The notes under the pieces: generated by a model
The model's database searches: none
Told to the model about the DNA's origin: nothing
The model's input: only the letters and a program-made list of their open reading frames with translations
Program-made: the position numbers and the translations under genes
Assembly: GCA_021734255.1 (NCBI GenBank)
Contig: JAIPJM010000006.1
Span: 1 to 64,000 of the forward strand
DNA from: Fidelibacterota bacterium
GTDB taxonomy: Bacteria > Fidelibacterota > UBA8477 > JABMPR01
DNA: 64,000 nt
Reading direction: 5' to 3'
In this document: piece by piece, positions 258-41,147 of the stretch
How positions within the stretch are numbered: position 1 is the first letter of the stretch
Layout of the letters: each line of letters begins with the position of its first letter

Positions 258-2465
258 TTGGATTGGGGGCATGCTGAACGTTTTGTCAAGCAGCTGTCGA
301 ATTTGCCTAGCCCTCTTTCATTTGAGATCGTTGGCAATGAAGAAGAGATCTCACTATACCTTTCATGCAGTGAGAGTGCTGGTCAACTTGTGGAAACAGC
401 CTTCCAGGCAGAGTATGCTGAGGGTTACCTGGAGAAGGCAAAACCTTCTTGGCTAGGGGCAAAAGTATCCTTCATGGAGATCTTCCCTCCACCACCCTAC
501 CATCACCTGTTTACAGATCCAACTGAACTTGTTCAGTCCCCTCTTAATAGTTACATCCAGGCACTAAAACAGATTCCTGCTCCCCAAAAAGGATTTATCC
601 AGGTTCTGATTCAAGCAGCCCGGCATCCATGGCATGAAAATGTAAGATTACTGACAGATCTTGAATTCCTGTCAAAATCAATCCAACCAGGGAATAGAAG
701 CACCACATTGATCCAACAGACCCCTTCTGTTGAAATGCATCAGCTGGGTCACACTTTAGAGCAAAAAGCACATCCTGATAAACCGTTCTATTCAGTTATT
801 GTGCGCCTGGGGATCACTGGGGAAACAGGTCCAGTTCAGCCAGAGCTGCTCTCTGGGTTCTTGTCTCTACTTCGCCATGGCGGTAAAGCACTTCAGATCA
901 TTCCACCTCATCATATTGATGACCGCTTCAAAGCTTATGAGAAGCGACGAATGATTCAACAGCTCCAAACATATCGGCATGGGTTCTTAATGAATTCAAA
1001 TGAACTGGTTAGTCTACTGCATATCCCTTCATCAAACGTGTTGAAAGAAAACTTTCCCCAACACCCCGTCTTAGATATTCTTCCAGCTAACCCATTCATA
1101 ACTCTCTCTACGAGGGGGATATATATGGGTACATCAATTCAAAACGGACGTAAGGTTCCTGCTCTTCTCAGTTCTGAGGAACGCTCAAAAAATGTTCACA
1201 TCATTGGAAAGCCCGGTACAGGTAAAACCACTTTGCTGGAGAATATGATTTTAGAAGATATTGGAAAAGGTTATGGCCTGGCATTCATCGATCCACATGG
1301 AGATGCAATAAAGCGCTTATTGCGGCTCATCCCTGAGGACCAAATATCAAGAGTGATCTATTTGGACTTCGGTGATCCTTCCTGGATACCCATTTGGAAC
1401 CCGCTATGGGGTCATGAGGGGCCTGCAACACTACGAGTGGCTGATGACCTTGTTAATGCAATCCGGAGCACGATACACATCACACAGTGGGGGGATCGAC
1501 TTGAGCACCTCTTAAGGCATGGCTTTTATGCATTGATGACACATGGGGATGCCAGTATCATTGATATGCTTCATTTGTTTCACCAGGGTCACAGCTCCAA
1601 ACATCAGTCTGAACGTATTCAAATCATAAACGAAATTATCTCAAAGCTGGATAACCCTGCAGCAGAAATGTTCTGGGAGAGGGACTACTCCAGCTACAAG
1701 CGTGAAGAATTTAGCTCTACACATCACAAATTAAGTAAACTCCTACTTGCTTCAGAGACTATATCACTCATGCTGTCTCAATCTCAAAATGCTGTGGATA
1801 TCAAAGAGTGTCTTGAAAAGAGGAAAGTTCTACTACTCGACCTTTCGAGTGTGGGTGATGATGCTAGAAAAGTTCTGGGAAAGTTCTTACTCTCAAGTCT
1901 TTTCCATACCGCGCTATACCGTTCTAACCTGTTGCCTGAGGATCGTGAGCTATTCACAATTTACTGCGATGAGGCCCATAAGCTCACCACCCATTCTTTA
2001 GGGGATATGCTGGTGGAGTCCCGCAAGTACGGCATAAGTCTCGTTCTAGCTCATCAATACCTCAACCAATTTCCACAAGCTCAGATTGACGCTCTCTCCA
2101 GTGCAGGCACTTCAGTCATATTCAACATCGATATCCAGGATGCGATGCACTTGAGCAAGGATCTAAAAGAAATGGCCATCTATGATGACATCATAGACCT
2201 GGAAGTAGGTGAGGCCATCATGAAAATGGGAACACACATCTTGAAAATTAAACCAGATCCACCTGCACCTGTAGGCTCTGATGGTTTTATGAATAGGATT
2301 GTATCACAGAGTCGAGCTCAATATTGTAAGCCGGTTGCGCAAGTAAAGAGAGAGTTGAGAGAGCGTGAGAGTGACTATGGTCCTGAGAACGCCCTCCTGG
2401 AATCAGATAGGGAGCTGATAAGACGTATCATAGCCGAGGGTGATTTCACTTTGGATTACTTTTAA
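258..2465 (+). CDS. VirD4/TraD/HerA-like DNA-translocating ATPase of a mobile element, probably 5'-truncated
   Basis: A 735-codon reading frame from a TTG. The C-terminal half is a RecA-like motor of the coupling-protein class. Walker A is GKPGTGKTT (about residues 317-325), IDPHGDA lies around 344-350, and the Walker B CDEAHK is at about 570-575, followed by a TraG/TraD-like QTK-type stretch (LVLAHQYLNQF). Such ATPases drive DNA through a conjugation pore or act on element DNA. The N-terminal 280 residues have no motif I recognise. The frame stays open upstream to 147 with protein-like content (for example THFLVRPAAKHK just before the TTG) but has no ATG or GTG. The original start was therefore probably lost when the IS630 element inserted upstream. 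No relaxase or other type IV secretion gene is visible, so true conjugation is unproven. Confidence 0.75.
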   Translation: MDWGHAERFVKQLSNLPSPLSFEIVGNEEEISLYLSCSESAGQLVETAFQAEYAEGYLEKAKPSWLGAKVSFMEIFPPPPYHHLFTDPTELVQSPLNSYIQALKQIPAPQKGFIQVLIQAARHPWHENVRLLTDLEFLSKSIQPGNRSTTLIQQTPSVEMHQLGHTLEQKAHPDKPFYSVIVRLGITGETGPVQPELLSGFLSLLRHGGKALQIIPPHHIDDRFKAYEKRRMIQQLQTYRHGFLMNSNELVSLLHIPSSNVLKENFPQHPVLDILPANPFITLSTRGIYMGTSIQNGRKVPALLSSEERSKNVHIIGKPGTGKTTLLENMILEDIGKGYGLAFIDPHGDAIKRLLRLIPEDQISRVIYLDFGDPSWIPIWNPLWGHEGPATLRVADDLVNAIRSTIHITQWGDRLEHLLRHGFYALMTHGDASIIDMLHLFHQGHSSKHQSERIQIINEIISKLDNPAAEMFWERDYSSYKREEFSSTHHKLSKLLLASETISLMLSQSQNAVDIKECLEKRKVLLLDLSSVGDDARKVLGKFLLSSLFHTALYRSNLLPEDRELFTIYCDEAHKLTTHSLGDMLVESRKYGISLVLAHQYLNQFPQAQIDALSSAGTSVIFNIDIQDAMHLSKDLKEMAIYDDIIDLEVGEAIMKMGTHILKIKPDPPAPVGSDGFMNRIVSQSRAQYCKPVAQVKRELRERESDYGPENALLESDRELIRRIIAEGDFTLDYF

Positions 2466-2480
2466 ACTTCCAATGGTAGC

Positions 2481-3032
2481 ATGTCACGATTAAACGAATT
2501 TCTAGATCAGGTAACTGGAGGATCTCTATCTCTTCCTCTTGATATCTCTGGGATAGAGGATGAGTGTAAACAGATAGACTCCCATTCTGAGCTCATGGTC
2601 CTATTGGAGCAATTTTGCAGGATAAATACTATTCCTATTGATGAGCTACTGTGGTGGATAGAAGGGCATTACCAGGGGGATGCAACTTCTGGGATCACCG
2701 GACTCGTCACAGACCTCCATACAAATGAGTTAAGGATCCTGGATATCCTGGAGAGCTTTGAATTGTATCGACACGCAAGAATCGAGGAATCTAGCCTGAC
2801 CTGGTTACTCCAGAAGGACCTGGACCTGTTGGATACAGAATCAAGGCTCTCAATCACCGAAGAATTAGTCACCAAATATTCAGAACTGCTTCCCACAGAA
2901 GTTACGGACCTCCCACATGATCTCTTGAGCCTTCATCTCGAGGATCTGATCCATAGTATCATCCATCTCAGGCAATCCCCATACGTCCAAACAAATTTAG
3001 ATAAATTCTTGGAGCCCCATGTAACATCCTGA
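2481..3032 (+). CDS. Acidic hypothetical protein of the mobile element
   Basis: 183 residues, starting 15 bases after the ATPase stop and ending 38 bases before the primase start, so it is probably co-transcribed with both. It is rich in Asp, Glu, Leu and Ser, predicted to be helical and soluble, with no signal peptide, membrane segment or Cys/His cluster. I do not recognise a family. Its position between a DNA motor and a primase suggests an accessory role in element replication or transfer, which is inference only. Confidence 0.65.
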   Translation: MSRLNEFLDQVTGGSLSLPLDISGIEDECKQIDSHSELMVLLEQFCRINTIPIDELLWWIEGHYQGDATSGITGLVTDLHTNELRILDILESFELYRHARIEESSLTWLLQKDLDLLDTESRLSITEELVTKYSELLPTEVTDLPHDLLSLHLEDLIHSIIHLRQSPYVQTNLDKFLEPHVTS

Positions 3033-3070
3033 TAACCCTGCCCGCTTACCGTACAGAAAGGGTAAGTGGA

Positions 3071-4072
3071 ATGGAAAGTCCCAAACACAGCAAGAAATTA
3101 TCAAGGCATGAAAAATTTGCCCTGTTTTCTGAGCTTTTCCGAGGCTTATCATCAGCATATGGCACGTATGACCCTGCATCAGGTAAATATCGGCAGGTAA
3201 AAGAACCTGTCACTGAGGATGTGATCTTTAACCACCTGGCAGAGATTAGACCCTATGGGTTCTATTTGCTGAAGGGAGATAAAACAAGAGTCGGTGTTAT
3301 TGATGTGGATGAGGATGATCTTCAACTTGTTCAGCAGCTTTATTCCAGATCTCGCCACTATGAACTGACTCCGCTCATCGAAGTGAGTAAATCAAAGGGT
3401 TACCACCTTTGGTTCGTATTCAAGGGGGAAGTCCTCTCGTGGAAAGTGAGAGCCATTCTTCGTCTGCTTCTTGAGGATGTAGGCCACCAGGAGGTCGAAA
3501 TATTCCCCAAGCAAGATGAGGTGACACCAGGAACCTATGGAAACTTCATCAATGCGCCCCTATTTGGCAAAGCCGTCAGGTCGGGCAAAACGGTGTTCCT
3601 GGATCCGGAGAACAACTTCCAACAATTCAAAGACCCCTGGGAACTTCTCCAAAGCCTAGCCCTTCACACTGAATCGCAACTGAATGATCTCATTAATCTC
3701 AACGGGTTGAGTCCGAGAGAAAATGGCAATACCTCTCCACATAAGCATCCATCCCCAAACGGCTATCCCCTCCCTGCCTGCATACGTAAGCTTTTAGCAT
3801 CAGGTACCAGGTTCAATCAACGGATAGCAGCCTTCAGGTTGGCTGTCAACTTGAAAAGGATTGGATTGCCAGAAGATCTAGTCAACACCCTGCTCCTAGA
3901 CTGGCGGTTGAAAAATCAGCCTAATAAGGATAAGCGAATCATCACAATCCGAGAGATAGACTCCCAGGTCAGATGTGCGTACCAGAAGCCGTACACGGGA
4001 ATCGGATGTGAAGAAGGAGTTATCAGTCAATATTGTGAATCATCATGTCAAATAAAGGAGAAGTCATCATGA
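3071..4072 (+). CDS. Archaeo-eukaryotic-type primase (AEP, TOTE-like) of a mobile element
   Basis: 333 residues. The catalytic DxD of AEP primases is visible as IDVDEDD (D78, D80). It is followed by the motif-II-like SKSKGYHLWFVF (H112) and by EIFPKQD...GNFINAPL (around residues 150-170), which matches the FPxQD...GNLIxLPL signature of TOTE-type AEP domains. The C-terminus has four cysteines, C302, C313, C322 and C326, probably a zinc-binding or Fe-S module like those in other AEP primase C-terminal regions. AEPs in mobile elements make primers or carry out repair and replication synthesis. The stop overlaps the next start (ATGA), so the excisionase-like gene is translationally coupled. No fused helicase or nuclease is present, unlike full TOTE conflict systems. 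Confidence 0.8.
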   Translation: MESPKHSKKLSRHEKFALFSELFRGLSSAYGTYDPASGKYRQVKEPVTEDVIFNHLAEIRPYGFYLLKGDKTRVGVIDVDEDDLQLVQQLYSRSRHYELTPLIEVSKSKGYHLWFVFKGEVLSWKVRAILRLLLEDVGHQEVEIFPKQDEVTPGTYGNFINAPLFGKAVRSGKTVFLDPENNFQQFKDPWELLQSLALHTESQLNDLINLNGLSPRENGNTSPHKHPSPNGYPLPACIRKLLASGTRFNQRIAAFRLAVNLKRIGLPEDLVNTLLLDWRLKNQPNKDKRIITIREIDSQVRCAYQKPYTGIGCEEGVISQYCESSCQIKEKSS

Positions 4073-13410: not shown

Positions 13411-13878
13411 TTAGGAATTGTCTCCTACTTCCTGAATCTCATTATGAATTTCATGCACAAGCCGTTCGATCGCAGTCAAGACACTCGACGATACAGCAGA
13501 GTTGAATTCCAGCGCTTGGGGTTGAATACCAAAAATCATCAACTCCTTGGGGAGCATCTTGAGTTCAGTAGCCATTTTGAGGGCTTCAGCCAAGCCCAGC
13601 CCATGCAAATTCTGAAGATCATTCTTGAGTAGCATGTCCACCTGATCCGGTCTGAATTTTACGACTTCACCGGGTGATTTTGCCATTGAACAGGCGTCCA
13701 CTATCCAAACACGATTCCGGTCATTCAGATATTCAAGCAGACCAATGGCATCGCTCCCCGCATCGATCAACTCCACTTGAGGATCGTTCAGTTCCATCAA
13801 TCCATCAATGACCATTGGACCTGCAGCGTCATCACCACGCAGTCTGTTCCCGATGCCGATGACAGTAAGCGGTTTCAT
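13411..13878 (-). CDS. NiFe-hydrogenase maturation protease
   Basis: 155 residues from the ATG at 13878; an upstream in-frame ATG would place 21 extra residues inside hydA. The family signature GIGNRLRGDDAAGP is at the N-terminus, and IDAGSD and VDACSM follow. The acidic residues in GDD and DAG bind nickel. The enzyme trims the C-terminal tail of the hydrogenase large subunit once NiFe is loaded. Its substrate is the product of the gene ending two bases upstream, which keeps a tail after the last Cys motif. Confidence 0.93.
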   Translation of the reverse strand: MKPLTVIGIGNRLRGDDAAGPMVIDGLMELNDPQVELIDAGSDAIGLLEYLNDRNRVWIVDACSMAKSPGEVVKFRPDQVDMLLKNDLQNLHGLGLAEALKMATELKMLPKELMIFGIQPQALEFNSAVSSSVLTAIERLVHEIHNEIQEVGDNS

Positions 13879-13879
13879 T

Positions 13880-15184
13880 CTATTCGATAAAATCCACATC
13901 CAGCATATGGACAGAACATGATATACAGGGGTCATAAGCACGGACCAACATTTCCAGGTCAGCTGTGATCTCTTCCTTGCTCTTCGCTATGATCTCTGGT
14001 ACCAATTTCTTCATATCATCATCAATGTTGGCAAGATTCTGGCCAGTTGGAATAATGCAGTTAGCCTCAACGATGCTCCCCTTTTTATCGTAGGTATAGT
14101 CGTGAAATAAGATGCCTCGGGGAACCTCATTAGAACCAATGCCCCTTCCATATCTGGTAGGCGTCTGGTTGGGTTTCTCATTCTTGAGACCCTTTTCCAG
14201 CAGGGTGTCAATGATCCTTACACTATCGAAAATGACATGGACCGCCTCCACCACCTGAGCGATCGTATTCATATAAGGATTGTAGCAGTTGGGCTTTAAG
14301 CCCATGGCTTCTGCTGCTTCCAGTGCCTCAGGTACGAGCTGGGTATGATTGTTATTCCAGCGTGCCAGAGCACCAACAAAGTAAGAACTTCGGTTAAATC
14401 TGGCGTGTTTGGAGGTGCTGTGATCAACAATAAATTCATTGGTTACATCCAGGTAGTTATGAACATCCTGGGCACCACTATCTGAGGAAAAGATATCACC
14501 TTGGTAGAGCGCATATTCGTCAGGATGCTTAAGTGAGATGTACTCCGTTTCGCGCTCAAACTGAGGGATGGCTCCAGCCAGTGATTTCATGGTTTCAATC
14601 GTGGCAATTCCATCAGGCAAGGCCTCTTCCAGCAGGCGTCGCTTCAGCTCCACGAGTTCCGACTTTTCGGGGATCCTGGTAAAACCGCCGGGTACCGGAG
14701 TGATCGGATGAACCGCACGACCAGAAACAATATCACCGATATCATTGGCCAACCTTTTCATCCTCAGTGCTCTGAGAACAACATCCTTATGGGTAGCGAT
14801 CAGCGGAAAGACACTACCAACCTTTAAAAAATCTGGGGCCGCCAGGAAGTAGGCGTGGAGCACATTGGACTGTAGAGTCGCACCATTCACCAGCAGTTTT
14901 CGTAGTAGCTCTGTCTGCTCTGAAATTTCCAGACCGAGGGCATCTTCGGTGGCCACCAATGATGTGATCTGATGGCCCAGGGAACAGATCCCGCAGATCC
15001 TCGAAGTAATAATTGCGGCTTCATGGAAACTACGGCCTTTCATCATCGCTTCAAAGAATCGTGGGGGTTCAACAATGCTCAAATGAGCCTTCTCCAACAC
15101 ACCATCTTTCATGTTAACTACGATATTGCCATGCCCCTCTACCCGAGTCAGGTGGTGTACTTTTATATTTAGATCTTGACTCAT
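13880..15184 (-). CDS. hydA: Group 3b NiFe hydrogenase (sulfhydrogenase-type), large subunit
   Basis: 434 residues. NiFe ligands are C64 and C67 in SRICGICSLGH near the N-terminus, and C420 and C423 in DPCISCSVH near the C-terminus. Eight residues follow H426, a tail for the dedicated protease encoded next. With HydB, HydG and HydD it makes a soluble cytoplasmic enzyme that interconverts H2 and protons with NADP(H) and may reduce sulfur. The gene order B-G-D-A matches the Pyrococcus sulfhydrogenase operon. The start overlaps the end of hydD by 4 bases. Confidence 0.96.
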   Translation of the reverse strand: MSQDLNIKVHHLTRVEGHGNIVVNMKDGVLEKAHLSIVEPPRFFEAMMKGRSFHEAAIITSRICGICSLGHQITSLVATEDALGLEISEQTELLRKLLVNGATLQSNVLHAYFLAAPDFLKVGSVFPLIATHKDVVLRALRMKRLANDIGDIVSGRAVHPITPVPGGFTRIPEKSELVELKRRLLEEALPDGIATIETMKSLAGAIPQFERETEYISLKHPDEYALYQGDIFSSDSGAQDVHNYLDVTNEFIVDHSTSKHARFNRSSYFVGALARWNNNHTQLVPEALEAAEAMGLKPNCYNPYMNTIAQVVEAVHVIFDSVRIIDTLLEKGLKNEKPNQTPTRYGRGIGSNEVPRGILFHDYTYDKKGSIVEANCIIPTGQNLANIDDDMKKLVPEIIAKSKEEITADLEMLVRAYDPCISCSVHMLDVDFIE

Positions 15185-15915
15185 AATTGAACCTCATTTG
15201 AGTTGAATAGTAGCATCCGCTTTTTGGCTTCATCCAGGCTGATTCCGTGATTTGTCATGACTTCCAGCATTCCAATATAGTTTGGTTCATCAAGGAGTCC
15301 GCGGCATCCAGTACAGAACTGCCCAAAACTTGGACAAATTGCGTCACAGCCTCCGCGAGTGATCGGTCCGAGACAGACCATACCCCGATTATAGAGACAT
15401 TCGTTTTCACTCAATTTGCATTCCACACAGACTGGGGAATCATACCTGGGTGCCTGTTTGCCCAGCACCAGGGAGACCAAAAGCTTCAGGAAATCCTGCT
15501 GGGTCATGGGACACCCACGGACCTCGTAGTCAACCTTTACTATTGAAGAAACCGACATAGCAGGCAAGGTAGCGAAGAGATATTTATCCTCCCCATAGAC
15601 AGTCTCTCTAACCTCATCGATGGGCTGCAGGTTTTTCATGGCATTCACACCACCATTTACGGCACACGATCCCAAGGCGACCAGAATTTTACTTCTCCTT
15701 CTGATATCGTGAATACGCTCCACGCAGGATGGGGAAGAAATGGACCCTTCAATGAAAGCGATGTCATAGGCATCAGCTTTATCATCCATGGCTTCACGGA
15801 ATTCAACTATTTCCACATGTTTGAGTATGTCCAGGAGATCATTTTCCAGGTTCAGTTTATTCAACTGACAGCCTTCACAACTGGTGAAATCGAAGAAAGC
15901 AACTTTGGGTTTCAT
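15181..15915 (-). CDS. hydD: Group 3b NiFe hydrogenase, small subunit
   Basis: 244 residues. The proximal 4Fe-4S ligands are C13 and C16 (TSCEGC), C84 (GSCAVNGG) and C135 (RGCPMTQ). More cysteines downstream (around CVECKLSENEC and FCTGC) fit the extra clusters of this class. There is no Tat signal, so the enzyme is cytoplasmic. It carries electrons between the NiFe site and the FeS/flavin subunits. It sits between hydG and hydA, with one- and four-base overlaps. Confidence 0.95.
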   Translation of the reverse strand: MKPKVAFFDFTSCEGCQLNKLNLENDLLDILKHVEIVEFREAMDDKADAYDIAFIEGSISSPSCVERIHDIRRRSKILVALGSCAVNGGVNAMKNLQPIDEVRETVYGEDKYLFATLPAMSVSSIVKVDYEVRGCPMTQQDFLKLLVSLVLGKQAPRYDSPVCVECKLSENECLYNRGMVCLGPITRGGCDAICPSFGQFCTGCRGLLDEPNYIGMLEVMTNHGISLDEAKKRMLLFNSNEVQL

Positions 15916-16769
15916 TATAGAGCCTCCTCCAATGGTTTAATATCTACATAGTTAAATACGGGACCCTCCTGACAGCAGTAGACACCATTGATCTGGCAGT
16001 GACCACATTTACCGACGCCGCATTTCATCCGTCGTTCCAGTGACAGATAGATATGGCTATCAGGTAGCTGTTTAGACTTGAGTGACATGACCACGAACTT
16101 GTACATGATAGGTGGACCAGTGATCGCCGCAATAGTCTTGTTAAGATTCAGATCCAGTTCAGGGATAAGTGTGGTTATCACACCCGTGTTCCCTTCCCAG
16201 GATGGATCGCCCTGGTCAACGGTAACATGCAGTTCAACATCATCTCTCCTTTGCCACACATCAAGCTCATCAGTAAAAAGTAGCTCCGATGGATTTTTGG
16301 CTCCATAGAGAATGATCAGGCGACCAAATTCTTGTCGATTATCAAGTACAAAGTTTATAAGCGAGCGCAGCGGGACCAGACCGATCCCCCCAGCAACAAT
16401 TAGAATATCCTTCCCATACATTTTCTCGATGGGGTAACCTTTTCCAAAAGGTCCTCGAATACCAAGTGTGTCACCTTTTTCATATCGCTTGAGCACCTTG
16501 GTCAGCGTACCTACCTGGCGAATACATAGCTCAAAACTTCCCTCTTTGGATGGGGAGCTGGATATGGATATTGGGGCTTCCCCAATTCCGAAGGCTGACA
16601 CTTCGACGAATTGTCCCGGCTCATGTCCCAGGTCTTGACCGCCAGGCAGCTTTAACTCATACCACTTTTCCAGATCTGTCAGCTGTTTTGCATCAACGAT
16701 CTCACACATGGTGGGATAGTAAAGATCCAGGGCTTCATTTGATTTGACTTCTTGGAGACGTTTCATCAT
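15915..16769 (-). CDS. hydG: Group 3b hydrogenase FAD/NAD(P)-binding subunit
   Basis: 284 residues of the ferredoxin-NADP-reductase fold. The FAD part includes IRGPFGKGYP, the nucleotide part includes IVAGGIGLVPLRSL, and a C-terminal 2Fe-2S site uses C250, C255, C258 and C265 or C266 (CGVGKCGHCQ...YCC). It exchanges electrons with NADP(H) for the hydrogenase. Two adjacent ATGs could start it, preceded by a GGGGGT ribosome site. Confidence 0.94.
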   Translation of the reverse strand: MMKRLQEVKSNEALDLYYPTMCEIVDAKQLTDLEKWYELKLPGGQDLGHEPGQFVEVSAFGIGEAPISISSSPSKEGSFELCIRQVGTLTKVLKRYEKGDTLGIRGPFGKGYPIEKMYGKDILIVAGGIGLVPLRSLINFVLDNRQEFGRLIILYGAKNPSELLFTDELDVWQRRDDVELHVTVDQGDPSWEGNTGVITTLIPELDLNLNKTIAAITGPPIMYKFVVMSLKSKQLPDSHIYLSLERRMKCGVGKCGHCQINGVYCCQEGPVFNYVDIKPLEEAL

Positions 16770-16776
16770 CTACCCC

Positions 16777-17811
16777 CTATACCCGCACCGTTTTGTGAAA
16801 TTGCGCTTTCTCGTCTTCACGGATCAAGTCATTGATTATATCAACCATTGAAATGTCAGCAGGGCAGAATGCCGTACACCTCCCACAACCTACACACCAG
16901 GGGAGGCCTTCTTCATCAGTGATATATTTAAATTTTCGATAGAGACGATGGCGGGTACGGTTAAGCGTATGCTCCCTGAAATTCTCACCACCAGCCACTT
17001 CGGCAAAGGTGCTGAGCATACAACTGTCCCAGCTCCGTCGACGCATACCGTCTTCCGCAGTAACCTCAACCTGATCATTCACATCGAAGCAAAAACAGGT
17101 CGGGCAGGTCAGATTACAGGAACCACAACCGACACACCTCTCTGCCACTTCAGCCCAAACCTTTGAATGGTAGGCATACTGGAAAACGCGAGGAAGTCTA
17201 TTGTAGTGATATCTAATTTTCTTGTTGAATTCCCGTCCCTCGACATGAATCGGTTCTGCCTGTATAAGCTTGTCAAATCCCTTGAGTAGATCTTTTCCTT
17301 TATCCGAGATTATATACAGTTGATAATCATCGCTCACCTTGTTCAGGTATAGATCAAAACCTTCCATCTCCTCTATACTGATCCCGACACTTTCTGAAAA
17401 GTGGTACTCATCAGGTGAAAAAGAGACGCCGATAAATCGTGATTTCTTTCGTCTATTGAAATAATTCGATTCTGCTTTTCCGGAAAGCATGCTGTGGTCT
17501 AAGCGCAGTATGGATTGCATCTCGTAGCTGTGGATCCCAAAGTAGACAGCGGGTTTTATCGGAACCTCAGTGGGTTTGTAGCTCATATCCTTGAGCGAAA
17601 AGTCCATGAGTTTTTCCGTCGGTGGTAAAAAACACTTTTTTAGAGGTAAAAGGGTCCGGTTGTATTCCAGAACGACCTTCTCACTGTCTTTCACAGGCTC
17701 AAATGAATAGGAGACATCTCCTTTTCTATGGGGCGCGATAACCTCCCCATAAGCTCCCAGATGATCGATGAGAGCAGGAACGTCAGATTGTTTGAGAGAA
17801 TAACACTCCAT
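16777..17811 (-). CDS. hydB: Group 3b hydrogenase iron-sulfur (beta) subunit
   Basis: 344 residues. Two ferredoxin-like clusters lie in the C-terminal half: CVGCGSCNLTCPTCFCFDV and, about 75 residues on, CVGCGRCTAFCPADISM. The N-terminal 200 residues resemble the anaerobic sulfite reductase A / HydB family (YFGIHSYEMQSI...DGVS-like region). It is the first gene of the operon, preceded by an AAGGAAG ribosome site and the AT-rich promoter region. Confidence 0.94.
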   Translation of the reverse strand: MECYSLKQSDVPALIDHLGAYGEVIAPHRKGDVSYSFEPVKDSEKVVLEYNRTLLPLKKCFLPPTEKLMDFSLKDMSYKPTEVPIKPAVYFGIHSYEMQSILRLDHSMLSGKAESNYFNRRKKSRFIGVSFSPDEYHFSESVGISIEEMEGFDLYLNKVSDDYQLYIISDKGKDLLKGFDKLIQAEPIHVEGREFNKKIRYHYNRLPRVFQYAYHSKVWAEVAERCVGCGSCNLTCPTCFCFDVNDQVEVTAEDGMRRRSWDSCMLSTFAEVAGGENFREHTLNRTRHRLYRKFKYITDEEGLPWCVGCGRCTAFCPADISMVDIINDLIREDEKAQFHKTVRV

Positions 17812-24955: not shown

Positions 24956-27900
24956 TCAGCGTGGTAAGCTGGTCTTCCTGCAGATCCTCTCAAAATCACA
25001 ATACTTGCATGCAATTTTCTCATCTCGCTCAGTGAGTGGATAATAATTTTCCGCTATATGTCTGGCATACTCGAGCGTTTCACTTTGTATGCGCTCATAC
25101 GACCATTCAGATTGTTTATCAATGGATATCTGCTCATTTGCTTTTGCGTGTGCTATGACCGGGTGGTTAGATCCAACTTCCCCTACAAATCCTTTTAGAC
25201 CCACTTTACTATCTTTAAAAGACTTTAATTGACCATAGGTCATCACGACTTCTTTTTCAGGATATCTTAACTTGAGAGCGAGATAATAATAAAGCATTTG
25301 GCTGGTCCAAAACTCACGCGTGTCTTTTATCTCCACTTCCCCAGTTTTATAATCTGTTCCCCAAACATACTGATCATTTATTCGAGCGCGGTCTATTTTT
25401 CCCCGAATTCTGAGTTTTACCTTATCACTTTCAATTAAAACACCTGGCCATGACGTTTCTTCATCTTCGTACCCAAACTTCTGTTCATAAAAGCCAGTGT
25501 CCAACTGCTTCAGTAAACCTGATTCTTGAGACAAGCTGTAGGCAATAAGATTCTTATCCTGGTCAGTACAATTTTTAAAGTACGGCTCCATCCTTTTCAT
25601 AGCCAGTGCAGATCCATACTTAAGATCTTCTTTCTCGGCCAGCAGCTTATCGGCAATTTGCTGAAGTTTGATAAGGGCACTGTTCAAGTCATTGGCTGCT
25701 AACTTAAAGCCCCCTGCCTCACCAAACACCTCGAGGACCTTATGCACCAGATTACCAACCCAGGTCTCATCTCTTTTAGAAAGATCCGTTTCGATAGCAG
25801 TCAGGGAGAGTTGTCGCTTGTACCAGTATCTCTGAGGGCATTTCAATAGATCATCCATAGCAGAAGCGGAGATATCGATATCGATAACCACGTCTTGACC
25901 CTGCAATCTTCCAGACCATGCATCTGTTTCATCGGTATTAAGCAGTTCGTTGTGCCTTATTGTATAACTGGACGACGGGTCGGTAATGAGCTTCCCAGCC
26001 AGGCTGCGTAGCTGTTCCAGGTACGTACTGGCTGGCAAAGCAGGTGGGTCAGCCTGTCCTAGGTACTGGCAGAATGTGCTTATTTGAAGTCTCTTTCCTT
26101 CAGCATCACGGTCTGGTGCAGTTATGAACAATCTATCAGGGCTTCGCTTAGTCCAGCGATTGAAAAGATGCACATTCATATACCATGGATTGAAAGATGA
26201 GGTTTTCAAATATGGATGCCTCTCGACAGCCAGCGGGAATTGCCCCTCATTCATTCCGGCGATGAACAAATACTGATTTTCAAGATTTAAGGAATCAAGA
26301 TAGGAGATCACATCGACACCAAACCCCTGACTTCTGGATGCGACCTCTACGCCCTTTAGGCGTTCCTTGATCTCTCGATATAGATCGATGGTGTTGCCGG
26401 CCCGATTCATATATATAGACCAATCCCGACTGATACCGGTGAGCGCGCGTTGCAACGAGTTATACGACTTTAATGCGACACTACCTGGTGCCATCCGTTC
26501 AGATACTACATGAGTATCCAATAGTGCTACAAGCCAATTTACCTGCCCGCTTACGCCACCCTTTATTTCTGAATACCATTCTTTTTCAACAAATTGTTTT
26601 AATTCACGAATGGATCGCTCTAGATGGGCTAGTTTTAATAGATTCAGCGTAGCGGAATCATAATAATAGAGACCAGCCCGCCTTACCTCTACGTCAAGTT
26701 TTAATCTATCCTCACCTTTTTTCCCTTTAGGTATAACTAAGGGATGTAACCAAACAGACATGAGAGAATCCCAGGTGATCTGATGGCTTAGTCGACCCTT
26801 CAACAGGGTCATTGCTAATTGCACAACCGGTCGTTCTAAAATAGGCTCACGTTTATTAAGCCGAATTGAAATACCATAATCACGGAAAACACGCTTTATT
26901 GCTGGAACATATTTCTCCATGGAAGAAACCGCCAAACCAATTTGGCTGAGTTCAGTGCCCTCGTCTAAAAGGGTTCTGATCCTGCGGGCATGGATGGACA
27001 CTTCTTCCTGGATTGAGAAACACGGCAAGTATGTATGGCGACTAGCACTTGTTTTATTTAGCGAGATCTTATTCCAATCATCTCTGGACATGCTGAACCC
27101 TGATTGCAGAGCCCCATCTTCCAGGGGATGCAGGAAGTGAAGCGTATGCTCCATGGATAGCTCTTTCAGAAACTCATAATCCTGTGGAGCTGTAGAATGG
27201 ATGGAATGGACAATGAATTCTGGCGCATCAAAAAGGTCATTACCGGCAGCGCTGTTATCTGGTAAAATGATATTATGCTCACTGCACCAAGCCATAAATT
27301 TTTCAAAAAAGCTTTCAAAAACATCTGCTATGGCCTCGCCCTGGCACGCTCTGTAACATGCTTCAGCCATCCGGCTTATCGTTCCCCATTTTGTATCTCG
27401 CGGCAGCAGGTTCGCCACACCCAATCTTGCTACATGAGTGGTCAAGTGCCTGCCTGTCTGTTCAAACCGCTTCCTGTATTCATTCAGCGTGGTGATATGG
27501 AGTCTTGGACGCAAGAGCTCTCTATCTGCAAGCGCCTGTGATAGATACTCCACACTGGTCTTCGTCGGTTCAAAGAGGACAACGGGTGTGGTGGGTCCCA
27601 TTTTTTTCAATAGATCTTCAAGCATCGGTTCGCAATCAGACCGATGGATGATGACTGGCTTGAGATCCGGCTCAATCACACTGAGGCGCTTGAAATAGAG
27701 TGTTTCGTCTGCTTCAATTTCAATTGTCTTGTCAAGGCGATTAAAGTAGAGCACACCCTTGGCTATGATCCCATACATCAGCCTCAGGATCCAGAGGTAG
27801 GTCTGGATCTGGAACCAGTATGCATAGTTCCCACCGGCCATATCTTCTGGCAGCTCTCTATCTGACTTGTAGTCAAGTATGATCCATGAGTGTCCATCAA

Positions 27901-30900
27901 AATAGAGGAGGTCAATTATACCACTTACTTTGAAAGTTTTCCGCGCATTTTGCATAAACCCAAACACTGGCATTTCGGCTAGTTTATCGTTGGGAGGAAT
28001 ACTTGAAATGGTTTGAAAGAGCTTACTCTGCGTGAATGCTGAAACACAATCGGCAAGGTCTACCATGACCTGCTCACGATCATCTGCGAATATTTCCAGA
28101 TCATCCAGATACTGCTGAATCTGTTCTGCATGTGCCTCGGTACTCAGCCACTCCATTTCCAATATCTTGTGTAGCAGTGTGCCAAACTTTCTCGGGGTAT
28201 CCAGATCACCATAATCACTACCGAAGGCAAGGTCAGGCACCTCCTTGGACTTGTCCTGCATCATCCAGTTCATGATCGTATGGGGTGAGATCTCCTCATA
28301 CTGCGCATCGATCATCGCTGTATGGTCCGCCACTTTTGGTGTTGGCACCCTTGCGGGAGGCGCGCTTCCCTCTACGACCAAGGCTGAAGAAGACACCAAT
28401 TCATACATCTCAGTCTCGGTACTACTCTGTAGCCACTCGTGAGATACGGTCTCCGGCTCTGCAATGATTTTCTCTTTGTCCCACTCTAACTTGAAACCCG
28501 GTTTTAAATATGACTCCCACCACGACCCACTGAGACGGTTGCCCTCTGGTTTTATCCTGGAGATGAATTCTACACCATATTTTGCTCGGGTAAGAGCAAC
28601 ATAGAAGAGACGCTTGTCCTCTGCCTCATTTTCAAGTTTATCGATCTCTTTTAGCCTGGTGAAGGTACTGGTATCTTCGCTGCCGCTCAGAGTGTCCACT
28701 TGAATGCCAAGTGTCATTTTGCCCTGCAACTTCCCTATGAACATACCGCTCTTTTCGGTAGGATTACGGCGTTGACATTCTGGAATGATCACTACCGGAA
28801 ATTCCAAGCCCTTGGCCTTATGTATGGTCATGATCTGTACTTTGGCAGAGCCTGGCTGCTCCGCCTGCCCTGCTTCACCGTGCTGGATCTGAAACCGCAT
28901 ATACTCCTGGACCTCGCGTAGGTTCAGTCCATCCAGAGAGAGCGAATGTATAAGGTCGATCAGGCGATGAATGTTAGCAATGCGTAATTGACCGTTTGTT
29001 TCAGATATCCACCCTAATTGTCTTTCACCTTCTGCAATGGCATCGGTAAGTATCCGGTCGATCGGCTCATATGCACACCTGGACCGCCACGATTTTATCA
29101 TCGCGTATATCGTGGGCTGGACCTGTCCAAGACCTGACCAAACCCACCCCAGGTCATGGACCTTATCTGCAGCATTTCTTAGTTCCTGAATATGCGCATC
29201 TTTTAAAATAAAAAAGGGACTTCTTAATAAACCCACCAGAGCAATGTCATCATGAGGGTTCACCAGAACTGAAAGGAAATGGTAAATATCAAAGCTCTCC
29301 TGCTGCTCAAAGAGTCCCTTGCTTGAGACGACTTCATAATCTATCCCTTTGGCAGTGAAAATACGGATGTAGTCAATAATTCTCGCTGCTGAACGAAGTA
29401 AGACACCGATGCTGGGAGTTTCACCAGTTTTAATTTCATTTTTGTGTAGCCATTGCAACCAAGCGCTTGCTGCATCCGCAGTTTTATATATGTCGGAGAG
29501 ATGACTGCTCTTCGTCCCTTTATCTAAAACAACCGTTACCTTGCTTCTTGTCAGCGTATGTTCGTGGTCTGAAAGGGGGCTATCCTTGGTTACACTGGTA
29601 GGTTTAAAATATGTGTCATACAGTGGTAACTCATTTCGCATATCCTCTGCGTGGAATATTGTTCCGACAACGGGATTGATGACAGAATCAACAAAGGAAC
29701 GACTGGATCTATAAGTAACATCTGCAGTCTCAACAAAGCCCTTTGTGTTTTCCAACTCCTGTCTGACCGTATTCATAACCTGGACATCTGCTTGATTAAA
29801 GCGATAGATGGATTGCTTTGTATCGCCTACAATGAATAATCCACGCTCTCGTAACACGTCGGTCCCGCTGGAAGCAACCATTCTTACAATTTCCCAGCGC
29901 AGATCATTGGTATCCTGAAATTCATCAAATAGAATATGTGTGAACTGCCGTCCATAGGCTGCTGCAATGTCGGGTTTGTCCTTGAGAAGGTCATGTGCTT
30001 TAACGATAATTTCATTAAAACTCATTACATTCTCCCTGTTAAATCTTTTCGCCAATTCCGACCAATAGTTGGAGAAAAACTTTGCCAGGTGATGCTGAAC
30101 AATCAGAGCCTCCAAATCCCATCTGTTGGGAAGGTCGACGTTGAATGTTTGTTCGGTAAAATGTTTGGACACAAACTCAATAATAGTTTTAAGTTTGTTT
30201 CTGATGATATTTTTAACCTCATCTGACCAAACACCATTTTTGGTGTGCGGCGTTTTTCTGAAGGTCCCCTTCTGAGTGAGAGCAAACACTTTAATCTGTT
30301 GAAGCAATTCCAGACCATGCCTGAAATGATCATCGTAAGGGTTATGCAAATAAGCTTTCAGGTTTTCCAGGTTTTGATAGACCGAATCGTTTGTGTTGGC
30401 TACCAGGGAGTCATCAGGCAGCGCGGACACAAGATCTTTAAAGAGAGGTTCTGCACCATAAACTTCTATGGGAACAGGATGGTTTGTTTCATAACCGGCT
30501 ATCAATTCCCGAGGAACCGTCATCACATAGTGGTCAAGCCAGTCTGAGAGCAAATGTGAATTACTCTTGAGCTTTTTAATGTATTCTTCCAGATGGTAGA
30601 TCGATAAATGGTCCAGGAGAATGACCAGGTCCTCGTTTTGATCCTCGCTCTGTGCCTTGAGAAAAGCCTCCCATGTTTCCATCTCCATTTTTTTGACATC
30701 CGCTTCATCCTGAATTCGGAATTCTGGATCCAGGTCTAGTTTCTCAGCATGATCCCTTAATACCTGGGTGCAAAATGAGTCAATCGTGGATATGGAGTTT
30801 TGAGAGAACGTTGCTCTCAAGTGAGTTTTAAATTCTTCTGAGGATTTTCGCAGTTCCTGCCCAAAACTCTTTGGGACATGTTTAAGCTGCTCATCATTAA

Positions 30901-31147
30901 GAAGTGTATTGAGGTCTTCGTAGATACGACCCGACATTTCCGCCTGAGCTTTTTTTGTGAAGGTGATGACCAGAATATTGGAAGCATCCTGGGTCGGTGC
31001 ACCTGGATCCATAGTATTTTGCCTGGCAAATTCATTCATGATCGCTGCATAGCGCTTGGATAGCAGCCAGGTTTTTCCTGCACCTGCACATGCTTCGACA
31101 AAAACATTCCGCTCCAGGTCAAAAACTCTATTTAGATCAATACTCAT
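24956..31147 (-). CDS. addAB: AddA-AddB fusion: ATP-dependent helicase-nuclease in one 2063-residue chain
   Basis: A single uninterrupted frame. Residues 1-1150 are AddA-like: UvrD Walker A AGAGKT (K25), Walker B FDEFQDTND (407-415), motif GDTKQSIYRF, motif VI FYVALTRAK, then a PD-(D/E)XK nuclease with D1079 (GIIDLL) and D1092/K1094 (LDYKSD). From about 1160-1185 an AddB-like chain follows: degenerate helicase, then a second nuclease with D1919, D1932 and K1934 (TDYKTGE) and an Fe-S cluster set C1770, C2047, C2050, C2056, the AddB pattern. In most bacteria these are two proteins that form one complex, resect double-strand breaks and load RecA. Both nuclease sites look intact. The ORF is isolated by gaps on both sides. 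Confidence 0.93.
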   Translation of the reverse strand: MSIDLNRVFDLERNVFVEACAGAGKTWLLSKRYAAIMNEFARQNTMDPGAPTQDASNILVITFTKKAQAEMSGRIYEDLNTLLNDEQLKHVPKSFGQELRKSSEEFKTHLRATFSQNSISTIDSFCTQVLRDHAEKLDLDPEFRIQDEADVKKMEMETWEAFLKAQSEDQNEDLVILLDHLSIYHLEEYIKKLKSNSHLLSDWLDHYVMTVPRELIAGYETNHPVPIEVYGAEPLFKDLVSALPDDSLVANTNDSVYQNLENLKAYLHNPYDDHFRHGLELLQQIKVFALTQKGTFRKTPHTKNGVWSDEVKNIIRNKLKTIIEFVSKHFTEQTFNVDLPNRWDLEALIVQHHLAKFFSNYWSELAKRFNRENVMSFNEIIVKAHDLLKDKPDIAAAYGRQFTHILFDEFQDTNDLRWEIVRMVASSGTDVLRERGLFIVGDTKQSIYRFNQADVQVMNTVRQELENTKGFVETADVTYRSSRSFVDSVINPVVGTIFHAEDMRNELPLYDTYFKPTSVTKDSPLSDHEHTLTRSKVTVVLDKGTKSSHLSDIYKTADAASAWLQWLHKNEIKTGETPSIGVLLRSAARIIDYIRIFTAKGIDYEVVSSKGLFEQQESFDIYHFLSVLVNPHDDIALVGLLRSPFFILKDAHIQELRNAADKVHDLGWVWSGLGQVQPTIYAMIKSWRSRCAYEPIDRILTDAIAEGERQLGWISETNGQLRIANIHRLIDLIHSLSLDGLNLREVQEYMRFQIQHGEAGQAEQPGSAKVQIMTIHKAKGLEFPVVIIPECQRRNPTEKSGMFIGKLQGKMTLGIQVDTLSGSEDTSTFTRLKEIDKLENEAEDKRLFYVALTRAKYGVEFISRIKPEGNRLSGSWWESYLKPGFKLEWDKEKIIAEPETVSHEWLQSSTETEMYELVSSSALVVEGSAPPARVPTPKVADHTAMIDAQYEEISPHTIMNWMMQDKSKEVPDLAFGSDYGDLDTPRKFGTLLHKILEMEWLSTEAHAEQIQQYLDDLEIFADDREQVMVDLADCVSAFTQSKLFQTISSIPPNDKLAEMPVFGFMQNARKTFKVSGIIDLLYFDGHSWIILDYKSDRELPEDMAGGNYAYWFQIQTYLWILRLMYGIIAKGVLYFNRLDKTIEIEADETLYFKRLSVIEPDLKPVIIHRSDCEPMLEDLLKKMGPTTPVVLFEPTKTSVEYLSQALADRELLRPRLHITTLNEYRKRFEQTGRHLTTHVARLGVANLLPRDTKWGTISRMAEACYRACQGEAIADVFESFFEKFMAWCSEHNIILPDNSAAGNDLFDAPEFIVHSIHSTAPQDYEFLKELSMEHTLHFLHPLEDGALQSGFSMSRDDWNKISLNKTSASRHTYLPCFSIQEEVSIHARRIRTLLDEGTELSQIGLAVSSMEKYVPAIKRVFRDYGISIRLNKREPILERPVVQLAMTLLKGRLSHQITWDSLMSVWLHPLVIPKGKKGEDRLKLDVEVRRAGLYYYDSATLNLLKLAHLERSIRELKQFVEKEWYSEIKGGVSGQVNWLVALLDTHVVSERMAPGSVALKSYNSLQRALTGISRDWSIYMNRAGNTIDLYREIKERLKGVEVASRSQGFGVDVISYLDSLNLENQYLFIAGMNEGQFPLAVERHPYLKTSSFNPWYMNVHLFNRWTKRSPDRLFITAPDRDAEGKRLQISTFCQYLGQADPPALPASTYLEQLRSLAGKLITDPSSSYTIRHNELLNTDETDAWSGRLQGQDVVIDIDISASAMDDLLKCPQRYWYKRQLSLTAIETDLSKRDETWVGNLVHKVLEVFGEAGGFKLAANDLNSALIKLQQIADKLLAEKEDLKYGSALAMKRMEPYFKNCTDQDKNLIAYSLSQESGLLKQLDTGFYEQKFGYEDEETSWPGVLIESDKVKLRIRGKIDRARINDQYVWGTDYKTGEVEIKDTREFWTSQMLYYYLALKLRYPEKEVVMTYGQLKSFKDSKVGLKGFVGEVGSNHPVIAHAKANEQISIDKQSEWSYERIQSETLEYARHIAENYYPLTERDEKIACKYCDFERICRKTSLPR

Positions 31148-37399: not shown

Positions 37400-38371
37400 A
37401 TGAATAAATGGAAATTAAGAATTCAAAGTTTACGTATTGAGGAGATCATTTTCCTCGTATTCCTGATCCCCTCGATCTTGATAACCCTTCGAGCTAACTG
37501 GTACTTTTACATGTCCAGTACGGAATCATCGGTAAAGATAGAAGGTGGTATCTGGCGCATTATCGTTACGCTCCTATTAATGATCTGGTTCTATTGGTAT
37601 CTGTGGTTCAAGCCAGAGAAGCGGGTCTTCAAATTCATCCGCAACGTGGCGCCCTTCATCTTTGCCATTGCCATTTACACCAACCTCCATGATACGATCC
37701 ACTTCGTGAACCCCAATGATATACATTTCCAGCTAAATGCCATTGATGAATGGATGTTTGGTGTATCTCCAACTGTCTGGGCGGAGAAATTCTATCATCC
37801 CGCTCTCACAGATTGGCTCTCATTTGCTTATATGAATTATTTCTGGATCACTGTGATCCTGGTGATGTTCATGTACTATAAAAATGAAGATCGACAATTC
37901 AGAACGGTCATGCTTACTATGATGCTGTGCTATTATGGCGGCTATATGCTCTATATCCTGTTCCCGGCAGCGCCACCCAGGCTGGCACTTGCCGATCTTT
38001 ATAGCATCAATATTTTCAAGGGGACATCCCTCATTACAGATAGTGCAAGAAAGGTTGTCAACATAAGCGCGTCCTCAGCACGTGGTGCCTTTCCCTCACT
38101 TCATTGCACCATAACATTCCTGACACTTGGTATGGCTTGGAGATTCCACAAAGTGCTGTTCTGGATATTTCTCCCCATTGGAATTTCGCTCATTATCGCA
38201 ACGGTCTACCTGAGACATCATTACATCATTGATATTTATGCAGGTCTATTTTTATGCATGGCAGTCTGGTGGGTCACACCACGCATTGATACATGGTGGA
38301 GGTCTTACCAACAAAAGCGGGGAATTGTTTCTAACAGCCCCCCCGTCCTGGGTGTCCGCGAAAAGATCTAA
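37400..38371 (+). CDS. PAP2/AUR1-like membrane phosphatase or inositol-phosphotransferase
   Basis: 323 residues, six to seven membrane helices. The PAP2 catalytic motifs are GAFPSLHC (S233, H235) and YLRHHYIID (R272, H274, D278). The long N-terminal region before them and the NLHDTIHFVNPNDIH stretch are like AUR1/inositol-phosphorylceramide-synthase-type proteins rather than small PAP2 enzymes. Beside the inositol lipid genes it may dephosphorylate phosphatidylinositol-phosphate or move the inositol-phosphate head group. A paralogue lies at 40131. Confidence 0.83.
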   Translation: MNKWKLRIQSLRIEEIIFLVFLIPSILITLRANWYFYMSSTESSVKIEGGIWRIIVTLLLMIWFYWYLWFKPEKRVFKFIRNVAPFIFAIAIYTNLHDTIHFVNPNDIHFQLNAIDEWMFGVSPTVWAEKFYHPALTDWLSFAYMNYFWITVILVMFMYYKNEDRQFRTVMLTMMLCYYGGYMLYILFPAAPPRLALADLYSINIFKGTSLITDSARKVVNISASSARGAFPSLHCTITFLTLGMAWRFHKVLFWIFLPIGISLIIATVYLRHHYIIDIYAGLFLCMAVWWVTPRIDTWWRSYQQKRGIVSNSPPVLGVREKI

Positions 38372-40130: not shown

Positions 40131-41099
40131 TCACCTCAAAAAGGAGTTGATCTCTGGCTCCAAGCTCTGATTTTTCTGCAAAGCCTGCCATGATAATTCT
40201 AATTTTGGCGCTAACCAAATAGCCAGCAGACTAACTCCAAAACCAGCAATAATATCCACCACAAAGTGATAGCGTAGATAAACTGTTGCCACCGGTAATG
40301 ACAGGGCCATTGGTAGGAACAGCCAAAACAGTAGCCTGTTGTAACGCCAGGCCATGATCATTGTCAGCAGTGTGATGCCGTTGTGGAGCGAGGGGAAGGC
40401 ATCCCTGACTCTTTCTGGGGACAGGCCGACAACTGCTCTCGCAAGCTCGGATATGAACGAGCCTCCCTCCCAGATATCAACAGTAAAAAGCTCCGGCATA
40501 ACCATGTACGGTGATGCGGCTGGAAAAACAAGATAGCCAATAAATCCCAGGTAATTACTGAGCATGCCTGCCAGAATAAGCGTCCTGAATTCCCTGAAAT
40601 ATTTGCGTCTGTAAAGCCAAATAGCAAGGGTTAGTGTCATCCAGTAGTAATTTAAATAGGAGAAAGCGAACCAGTCTGTGAGGCGTGGGTGGTAAAACCG
40701 TTCTATCCAAACGGTCGGCTGAAGCCCAAATATCCATTCTTCTGCAATGAGTAGCCCCTGATGAATATCATGAGGGTTGAGTGCCCGGATCGTATCATGC
40801 AGGTTCAGATAGATCACAATTGTGAATAAAAATGGTGCGAAGTCTCGGATGATCTGCACCGGCTTATTTTCAATCTTGAATTGAATGAGCCAAAAGAAAA
40901 GCAGGGTAACAATGAGGGATAGTGATGCTCTTATAATTCCAGCTGCTGCATTGAATGAGCTCGTCACCTCATCGATGAGGAGTGTTACATTAAAAATCAA
41001 TGATATAAATATGCTCAATCCAAGAAAGAGGATAGCTATGGTCTCTTCGACGCGAAGGGATCTGAGATTGAAACTGAAGTATTGCCGTTCAGAAATCAT
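40131..41099 (-). CDS. Second PAP2/AUR1-like membrane protein
   Basis: 322 residues from the ATG at 41099. It is a clear paralogue of the protein at 37400: the same SLRVEE start, NLHDTIRALNPHDIH, TDWFAFSYLNYYW, and PAP2 motifs DAFPSLHN and YLRYHFVVD. The presence of two copies near the inositol genes suggests different steps, for instance phosphatase and head-group transferase. It is oriented opposite to the first copy. Confidence 0.83.
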   Translation of the reverse strand: MISERQYFSFNLRSLRVEETIAILFLGLSIFISLIFNVTLLIDEVTSSFNAAAGIIRASLSLIVTLLFFWLIQFKIENKPVQIIRDFAPFLFTIVIYLNLHDTIRALNPHDIHQGLLIAEEWIFGLQPTVWIERFYHPRLTDWFAFSYLNYYWMTLTLAIWLYRRKYFREFRTLILAGMLSNYLGFIGYLVFPAASPYMVMPELFTVDIWEGGSFISELARAVVGLSPERVRDAFPSLHNGITLLTMIMAWRYNRLLFWLFLPMALSLPVATVYLRYHFVVDIIAGFGVSLLAIWLAPKLELSWQALQKNQSLEPEINSFLR

Positions 41100-41147
41100 A
41101 TGGTGCAAAATAAGCTTAAGGTAGCCATTTGTCCAATTGGCTTAAAA

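Follow-up and report, generated by a model that had tools for sequence, protein, structure and literature searches.

A predicted single-chain AddAB helicase-nuclease in Fidelibacterota

The AddAB and RecBCD helicase-nucleases are textbook multi-subunit machines, and, to our knowledge, all described enzymes of this class consist of separate chains. RecBCD has three chains, including RecC, which lacks a working nuclease; AdnAB has two, each with a motor-like domain and a nuclease. The gene described here lies on the minus strand at positions 24956..31147 of a 64,000-nucleotide stretch (the window) from contig JAIPJM010000006.1 of the Fidelibacterota bacterium assembly GCA_021734255.1, and its product combines an AddA-like and an AddB-like part in 2063 residues. 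Members of the Fidelibacterota/Neomarinimicrobiota are mostly uncultured. Sequence comparisons and structure predictions indicate, with a probability of about 0.88, that this product is a single-chain AddAB, in which AddA (a UvrD-type motor and a nuclease) is joined by a loop of ∼7 residues to AddB, a motor-dead helicase-like scanner with an iron-sulfur (Fe-S) nuclease.

According to PMC4824097 and PMC5443536, the Bacillus subtilis AddAB has its motor in AddA, carries two nucleases, and uses AddB to scan for Chi, the Chi-modified enzyme leaving a 3' tail for RecA. This enzyme (PDB 3u44, 4ceh, 4cei, and 4cej) provides the best match to each half of the fusion protein, with which it shares the AddA motor and nuclease and an AddB that contains a nuclease and Fe-S cysteines. 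In contrast to the separate chains of B. subtilis, a single chain in the order A-B is found here, with an AddB half of about 900 residues (versus 1166) and without a Walker A motif. The two separate subunits of AddAB are not seen in this single frame; separate chains are the build of the described members and not a biochemical requirement. A single-chain AddAB would be a variant of a known enzyme class, albeit one that is surprising to specialists because the members described so far are made of separate chains.

Domain architecture of the fused frame

The frame runs uninterrupted from 31147 to 24956, starting with ATG and encoding 2063 amino acids (aa) plus a stop; the plus strand, translated from 24956, contains many stops. 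The G+C content is lowest, or tied for the lowest, at the second codon position in 11 of 11 bins of 200 codons, the pattern expected of one coding frame. The original prediction had placed one open frame at these positions, with no strand named, and its uninterrupted course, ATG start, and full-length counterparts in relatives (see below) all agree with that claim.

The AddA helicase comprises residues 1 to 863 (28559..31147, minus strand), with the Walker A residues K25/T26 and the DEFQD motif at 408 to 412, and was recognized by Pfam, NCBIfam, alignment, and structural matches. It is followed by the AddA PD-(D/E)XK nuclease domain at about residues 950 to 1155 (27683..28300, minus strand; Pfam, alignment, and predicted fold), with the residues H993, D1079, D1092, K1094, Q1113, and Y1117. 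Pfam matches in this half include UvrD-helicase at 8-464 (E value 9.7e-50), UvrD_C at 691-857, and a Cas4-like match at 1076-1151, and the NCBIfam AddA models TIGR02784 (5e-75) and TIGR02785 (1.6e-72) span the first half, all 18 NCBIfam families listed for the fusion protein scoring below their curated cut-offs. The top structural matches of a model of residues 1-1200 are the AddA chains of B. subtilis AddAB, and the nuclease region gives fold matches to RecE, MGME1, and Cas4 chains. In an alignment of 27 fusions from 26 genomes, which does not contain those of G046, G050, G052, and G053 (intact by the search described below), the motor residues K25, T26, D408, E409, Q411, and R480, as well as the six nuclease residues listed above, are identical in all 27 proteins; the roles of these residues are those we presume from general knowledge of the families. 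The AddA-like helicase-nuclease claimed for the first half is thus borne out by both sequence profile and predicted fold.

The AddB helicase-like part occupies about residues 1163 to 1758 (25874..27661, minus strand), as judged by profile, NCBIfam, predicted fold, and pattern scan; the Walker A pattern is found in 27 of 27 AddA halves versus 0 of 27 AddB halves. The best match of the AddB-half profile is B. subtilis AddB (3u44_B, E value 6.9e-15, in colinear stretches), compared with 1.5e-4 at best for AdnA. The NCBIfam model addB_Gpos gives a weak match in the second half of the 2063-aa protein (2.9e-8) and scores 36.6 bits on this AddB half, far under its curated cut-off of 903.7; it matches nine of nine AddB halves, and addB_alphas matches seven of the nine (E values up to 0.1). 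In the model of residues 864-2063, Foldseek ranks 1 to 5 are AddB chains, ahead of AdnA.

AdnAB (PDB 6ppj, 6ppr, 6ppu, 7sjr, and 9np6) resembles the second half in fold but consists of two chains and shows a weaker sequence match to the AddB half. In RecBCD, RecB is similar in fold to the AddA half and RecC to the AddB half, whereas its chains number three and the RecC model, TIGR01450, finds no RecC in the genome studied here: its match is a stretch of the UvrD gene on contig C54 and falls below the cut-off (the control genomes of Escherichia coli and B. subtilis were both matched, one of them over the cut-off). It is improbable that the second half represents an AdnA-like or RecC-like partner and not AddB. 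In VIA-align, the Z scores of the AdnA and AddB chains are practically equal (17.1 and 17.0, with RecC lower), which counts against the assignment to AddB; the profile E values, the five AddB entries that Foldseek puts over AdnA, and the missing RecC match all favor AddB.

The AddB PD-(D/E)XK nuclease domain extends over residues 1759 to 2063 (24959..25873, minus strand; Pfam and alignment). Its best PDDEXK_1 stretch in Pfam is 1759-2057, the same family was matched in nine of nine AddB halves tested, and residues H1802, D1919, D1932, K1934, Q1950, and Y1954 are identical in all 27 aligned fusions. The translation and the alignment place the first Fe-S cysteine, C1770, at 25838..25840 and the other three, C2047, C2050, and C2056, at 24980..25009 (all on the minus strand), exactly as originally listed; all four are present in 23 of the 27 fusions, the window protein included. 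The modeling against known AddAB that had been proposed as a check gave AddA chains as the best matches for residues 1-1200 and AddB chains for 864-2063, and the AddB-like chain with its own nuclease is upheld by the 3u44_B match, the fold ranking, and the PDDEXK_1 match.

The junction, at about residues 1156 to 1162 (27662..27682, minus strand), is a short loop that links the final helix of AddA to the initial strand of AddB, as seen in the 864-2063 model and the alignment. In that model, the last AddA strand (1140-1144) and a helix (1148-1155) precede the loop, and AddB starts with a strand (1163-1165), a helix (1174-1183), and another strand (1189-1193); the mean predicted local distance difference test score (pLDDT) is 75-90 in ten-residue blocks over the junction and its flanks. 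This strand-helix-strand at 1163-1193 probably corresponds in position to the Walker A element of the RecA fold. The A-B order and the place of the junction are the same in 27 of 27 aligned fusions.

The chain might still be translated whole and then cut, or an internal start might be used, near residue 1160, to yield an ordinary two-subunit AddAB. Proteolysis would be compatible with the data, and the window protein carries a methionine at each of residues 1175 and 1183. However, neither methionine is conserved across the alignment of 27 fusions, the junction of only about 7 residues is predicted to be ordered, and genus g19 separated the gene at another place (see below), all of which makes such processing unlikely.

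Distribution and origin of the fusion

The original prediction had called for a search for the same fusion in relatives. Among 245 Neomarinimicrobiota/Fidelibacterota genomes, intact fusions, defined as frames of at least 1930 aa matched in both halves, were found in 30 genomes of seven families: 12 of the 19 genomes of the same genus, seven of genus g18, and G019, G021, G024, G026, G031, G036, G040, G042, G208, G211, and G212. In a comparison with 40 relatives, the identity of full-length frames was 48-50% within the genus, 32% for another genus of the family, 39% in the order, and 28-30% in other families. The G036 fusion sits in a one-contig genome of 2,788,509 bases; in G042, the search flagged one stop in the match, yet the frame has 2060 aa without a stop. 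Nine further genomes (G008, G010, G011, G012, G015, G017, G043, G044, and G045) contain pieces fitting a fusion; the frame reaches the contig end in seven of them, and G043 and G044 were judged from coordinates and frame length. Two bins, G007 (loci L010 and L026) and G046, have two differing fusion copies each, the second copy in G046 being cut by the contig end; with listed contamination of 3% and 5%, respectively, these could be mixed bins.

Full-length frames of similar size in relatives mean that this frame is neither a chance product nor an assembly artifact. Although the source genome is a draft of 59 contigs, intact frames in 30 genomes of seven families, one of them a single contig, led us to reject an assembly error or frameshift, and the probability of an assembly chimera, or of a stop codon lost between two adjacent genes, is negligible. 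Simple readthrough would also require the opposite gene order, since addB precedes addA in all 13 separate pairs that were inspected (G023, G025, G029, G030, G034, G038, G233, and G241 in the phylum and G247, G306, G330, G331, and G388 outside it), so that loss of one stop codon cannot produce the reversed, A-B order of the fusion. The fusion was probably preceded by a rearrangement, for example a tandem copy. The separate pairs of the phylum (families f3, f5, and f9) contain the same two subunits by profile but in two genes, B then A, and are set apart from the fusions by the branch that unites the latter.

That branch was recovered in trees built separately for the two halves. In the AddA-half tree (41 rows) and the AddB-half tree (34 rows) alike, 19 fusions and the g19 genes are on one side of one branch and separate genes on the other, with support in the Shimodaira-Hasegawa-like approximate likelihood ratio test (SH-aLRT) of 99 in each. 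These trees, which took 19 of the 27 aligned fusions and separate frames of at least 700 aa, came from short searches under LG+G4, with a software warning of long branches and uneven composition. The AddA tree omitted f22_G172; loci L069, L071, L073, L077, L078, and L079, with a separate AddA and no AddB frame in the fetched stretch, were used in the AddA tree only. Given a single branch in both trees, one ancient fusion event is favored. Several independent origins would suit the scattering of fusions through seven families whose phylum mates keep separate genes, but are very unlikely in view of this shared grouping and the identical A-B order and junction place in all 27 aligned proteins. 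A 996-aa frame of G172 (family f22) was rejected as an AddB: following a weak A2 match, it scored 116 bits with the AddA profile versus 51.

In genus g19 (family f6), the ancestral fusion appears to have been broken again (loci L047 and L048 in G054, L049 and L050 in G056, and L051 in G055). Gene 1 encodes the AddA helicase and the beginning of the AddA nuclease (1038 aa in G054 and 1044 aa in G056, where the search flagged a stop in the match, yet the frame has this full length), while gene 2, on another contig, begins inside the AddA nuclease and continues into AddB. Gene 2 is complete in G054 (1005 aa), truncated in G056 where the contig ends, and represented only by its start in G055, where no gene 1 was found at 1e-40. 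Both genes of G054 are away from contig ends. Gene 1 has comparable neighbors on both sides in G054 and G056, and the frame preceding gene 2, 373-378 aa long, is alike in all three genomes. Gene 1 retains the histidine motif, and gene 2 carries the GIID, DYKTD, and Q motifs. A broken ancestral fusion best explains these genes because the AddB gene opens with half of an AddA nuclease and both trees nest it among the fusions (inner support of 87 for AddA and 99 for AddB). An intein at the split was rejected by eye, with no intein profile applied, as the gene ends show none.

Outside the phylum, no frame of at least 1900 aa was found in the 147 genomes sampled (392 less 245), of which 38 matched at 1e-40; fusions truncated at contig ends, or diverged too far to match, would escape this sample. 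At 1e-60, matches were obtained in 66 of 84 genomes from the phylum of G283 and in 4 of 8 from that of G335, and none of these frames exceeds 1277 aa. The longest outside frames have 1727 (G361), 1507 (G381), and 1396 (G371) aa; the first two were inspected by eye and rejected as fusions, since their extra length overlaps an upstream AddB-like frame. No natural AddAB fusion was found described in the Creative Commons-licensed literature of PubMed Central: in the accessible part of PMC5443536, the fusions are two-hybrid constructs, and in that of PMC1193525, the words "fusion" and "fused" are absent. The suggestion that such a fusion is undescribed is consistent with this literature, and its supposed rarity holds outside the phylum (0 of 147 genomes) but not inside the clade, where fusion is the usual state.

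Weighing of the assignment and its cellular context

Besides the tie with AdnA, several observations weigh against reading the protein as a single-chain AddAB. The AlphaFold models are moderate (mean pLDDT of 65.3 and 69.5; predicted template modeling score of 0.41 each), and residues 1167-1200 have pLDDT values below 50 in the 1-1200 model, where AddB is cut off. Structural alignments give an identity of only 13-17% between the AddB half and AddB, and the AddB rows cover only model residues 505-1200. Four of the 27 fusions (G024, G208, G211, and G212) have none of the four Fe-S cysteines. The Chi latch of AddB, an E129-R629 salt bridge in the available part of PMC4824097, has no assigned counterpart: E129 could not be placed, as the hmmsearch alignment is uncertain around it and R629 is outside the alignment. 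Three of the 23 genomes of the order (G006, G020, and G022) show no fusion; a genome search with addB_Gpos scores the fusion itself at just 7.9e-4; and no 7- or 8-mer passed both Chi cuts (below) in 454 kilobases of G036.

The cysteine-less fusions (L021, L053, L054, and L055, in families f4, f27, and f28) retain the tested nuclease residues. The three genomes of the order that show no fusion have no AddA match beyond UvrD and are either incomplete bins or cases of real loss.

In the source genome, which is 91.3% complete, RecA is present, and the AddB-half profile and addB_Gpos each find the fusion only and no separate AddB; given this completeness and the addB_Gpos score, it is conceivable that a second AddB is missing from the assembly or has diverged strongly. 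The Chi search combined over-representation and strand bias (cuts of z >4 and bias >3) and used 23 of 26 stretches (L085-L110) of G036, excluding three that lie close to the putative origin or terminus. The word nearest to the cuts, CGCAGAG (56 seen versus 21.9 expected; z of 7.1, bias of 2.9), is a weak candidate.

By analogy with AddAB, the enzyme most likely resects double-strand breaks for RecA. The fusion would bind a double-strand end, the AddA motor would unwind the duplex, and the two nucleases would cleave both strands; the AddB part would scan the 3' strand and alter the activity, leaving a 3' tail for RecA. One translation event would supply both parts as a 1:1 unit. Resection, scanning, and the 1:1 unit are all inferred from AddAB biochemistry, and, as the original prediction proposed, a covalent fusion can fairly be expected to fix 1:1 assembly. 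It would likewise provide the two parts in equal amounts, remove an assembly step, and keep the nuclease close to AddB.

Chain boundaries may be movable without loss of the machine, a reading held with somewhat less than even confidence. After one ancient fusion, the cut inside the AddA nuclease in g19 would have left one active site built from two proteins, the second of them fused to AddB. The split and the ordered junction of ∼7 residues lead to a tentative prediction that AddB keeps the AddA nuclease docked for the whole of the reaction, so that any Chi switch would operate without the nuclease swinging away. The short junction would limit the movement of this nuclease with respect to the AddB scanner, a constraint relevant to Chi regulation in the enzyme class. 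A natural single chain offers a defined 1:1 enzyme expressible from one gene, and the g19 split could show, in a case from nature, whether a PD-(D/E)XK nuclease works when built from two chains; the finding is useful in that both one-gene expression and two-chain nuclease assembly become testable.

Elsewhere in the window, three features were noted by eye. Positions 258-4072 contain a HerA/TraD-like ATPase frame, a small frame, and an archaeo-eukaryotic primase-like frame, which might form a mobile or conflict element. A NiFe sulfhydrogenase-like cluster with a maturation protease is located at 13411-17811, and two similar PAP2-like membrane proteins are encoded on opposite strands, a few kilobases apart, at 37400-38371 and 40131-41108.

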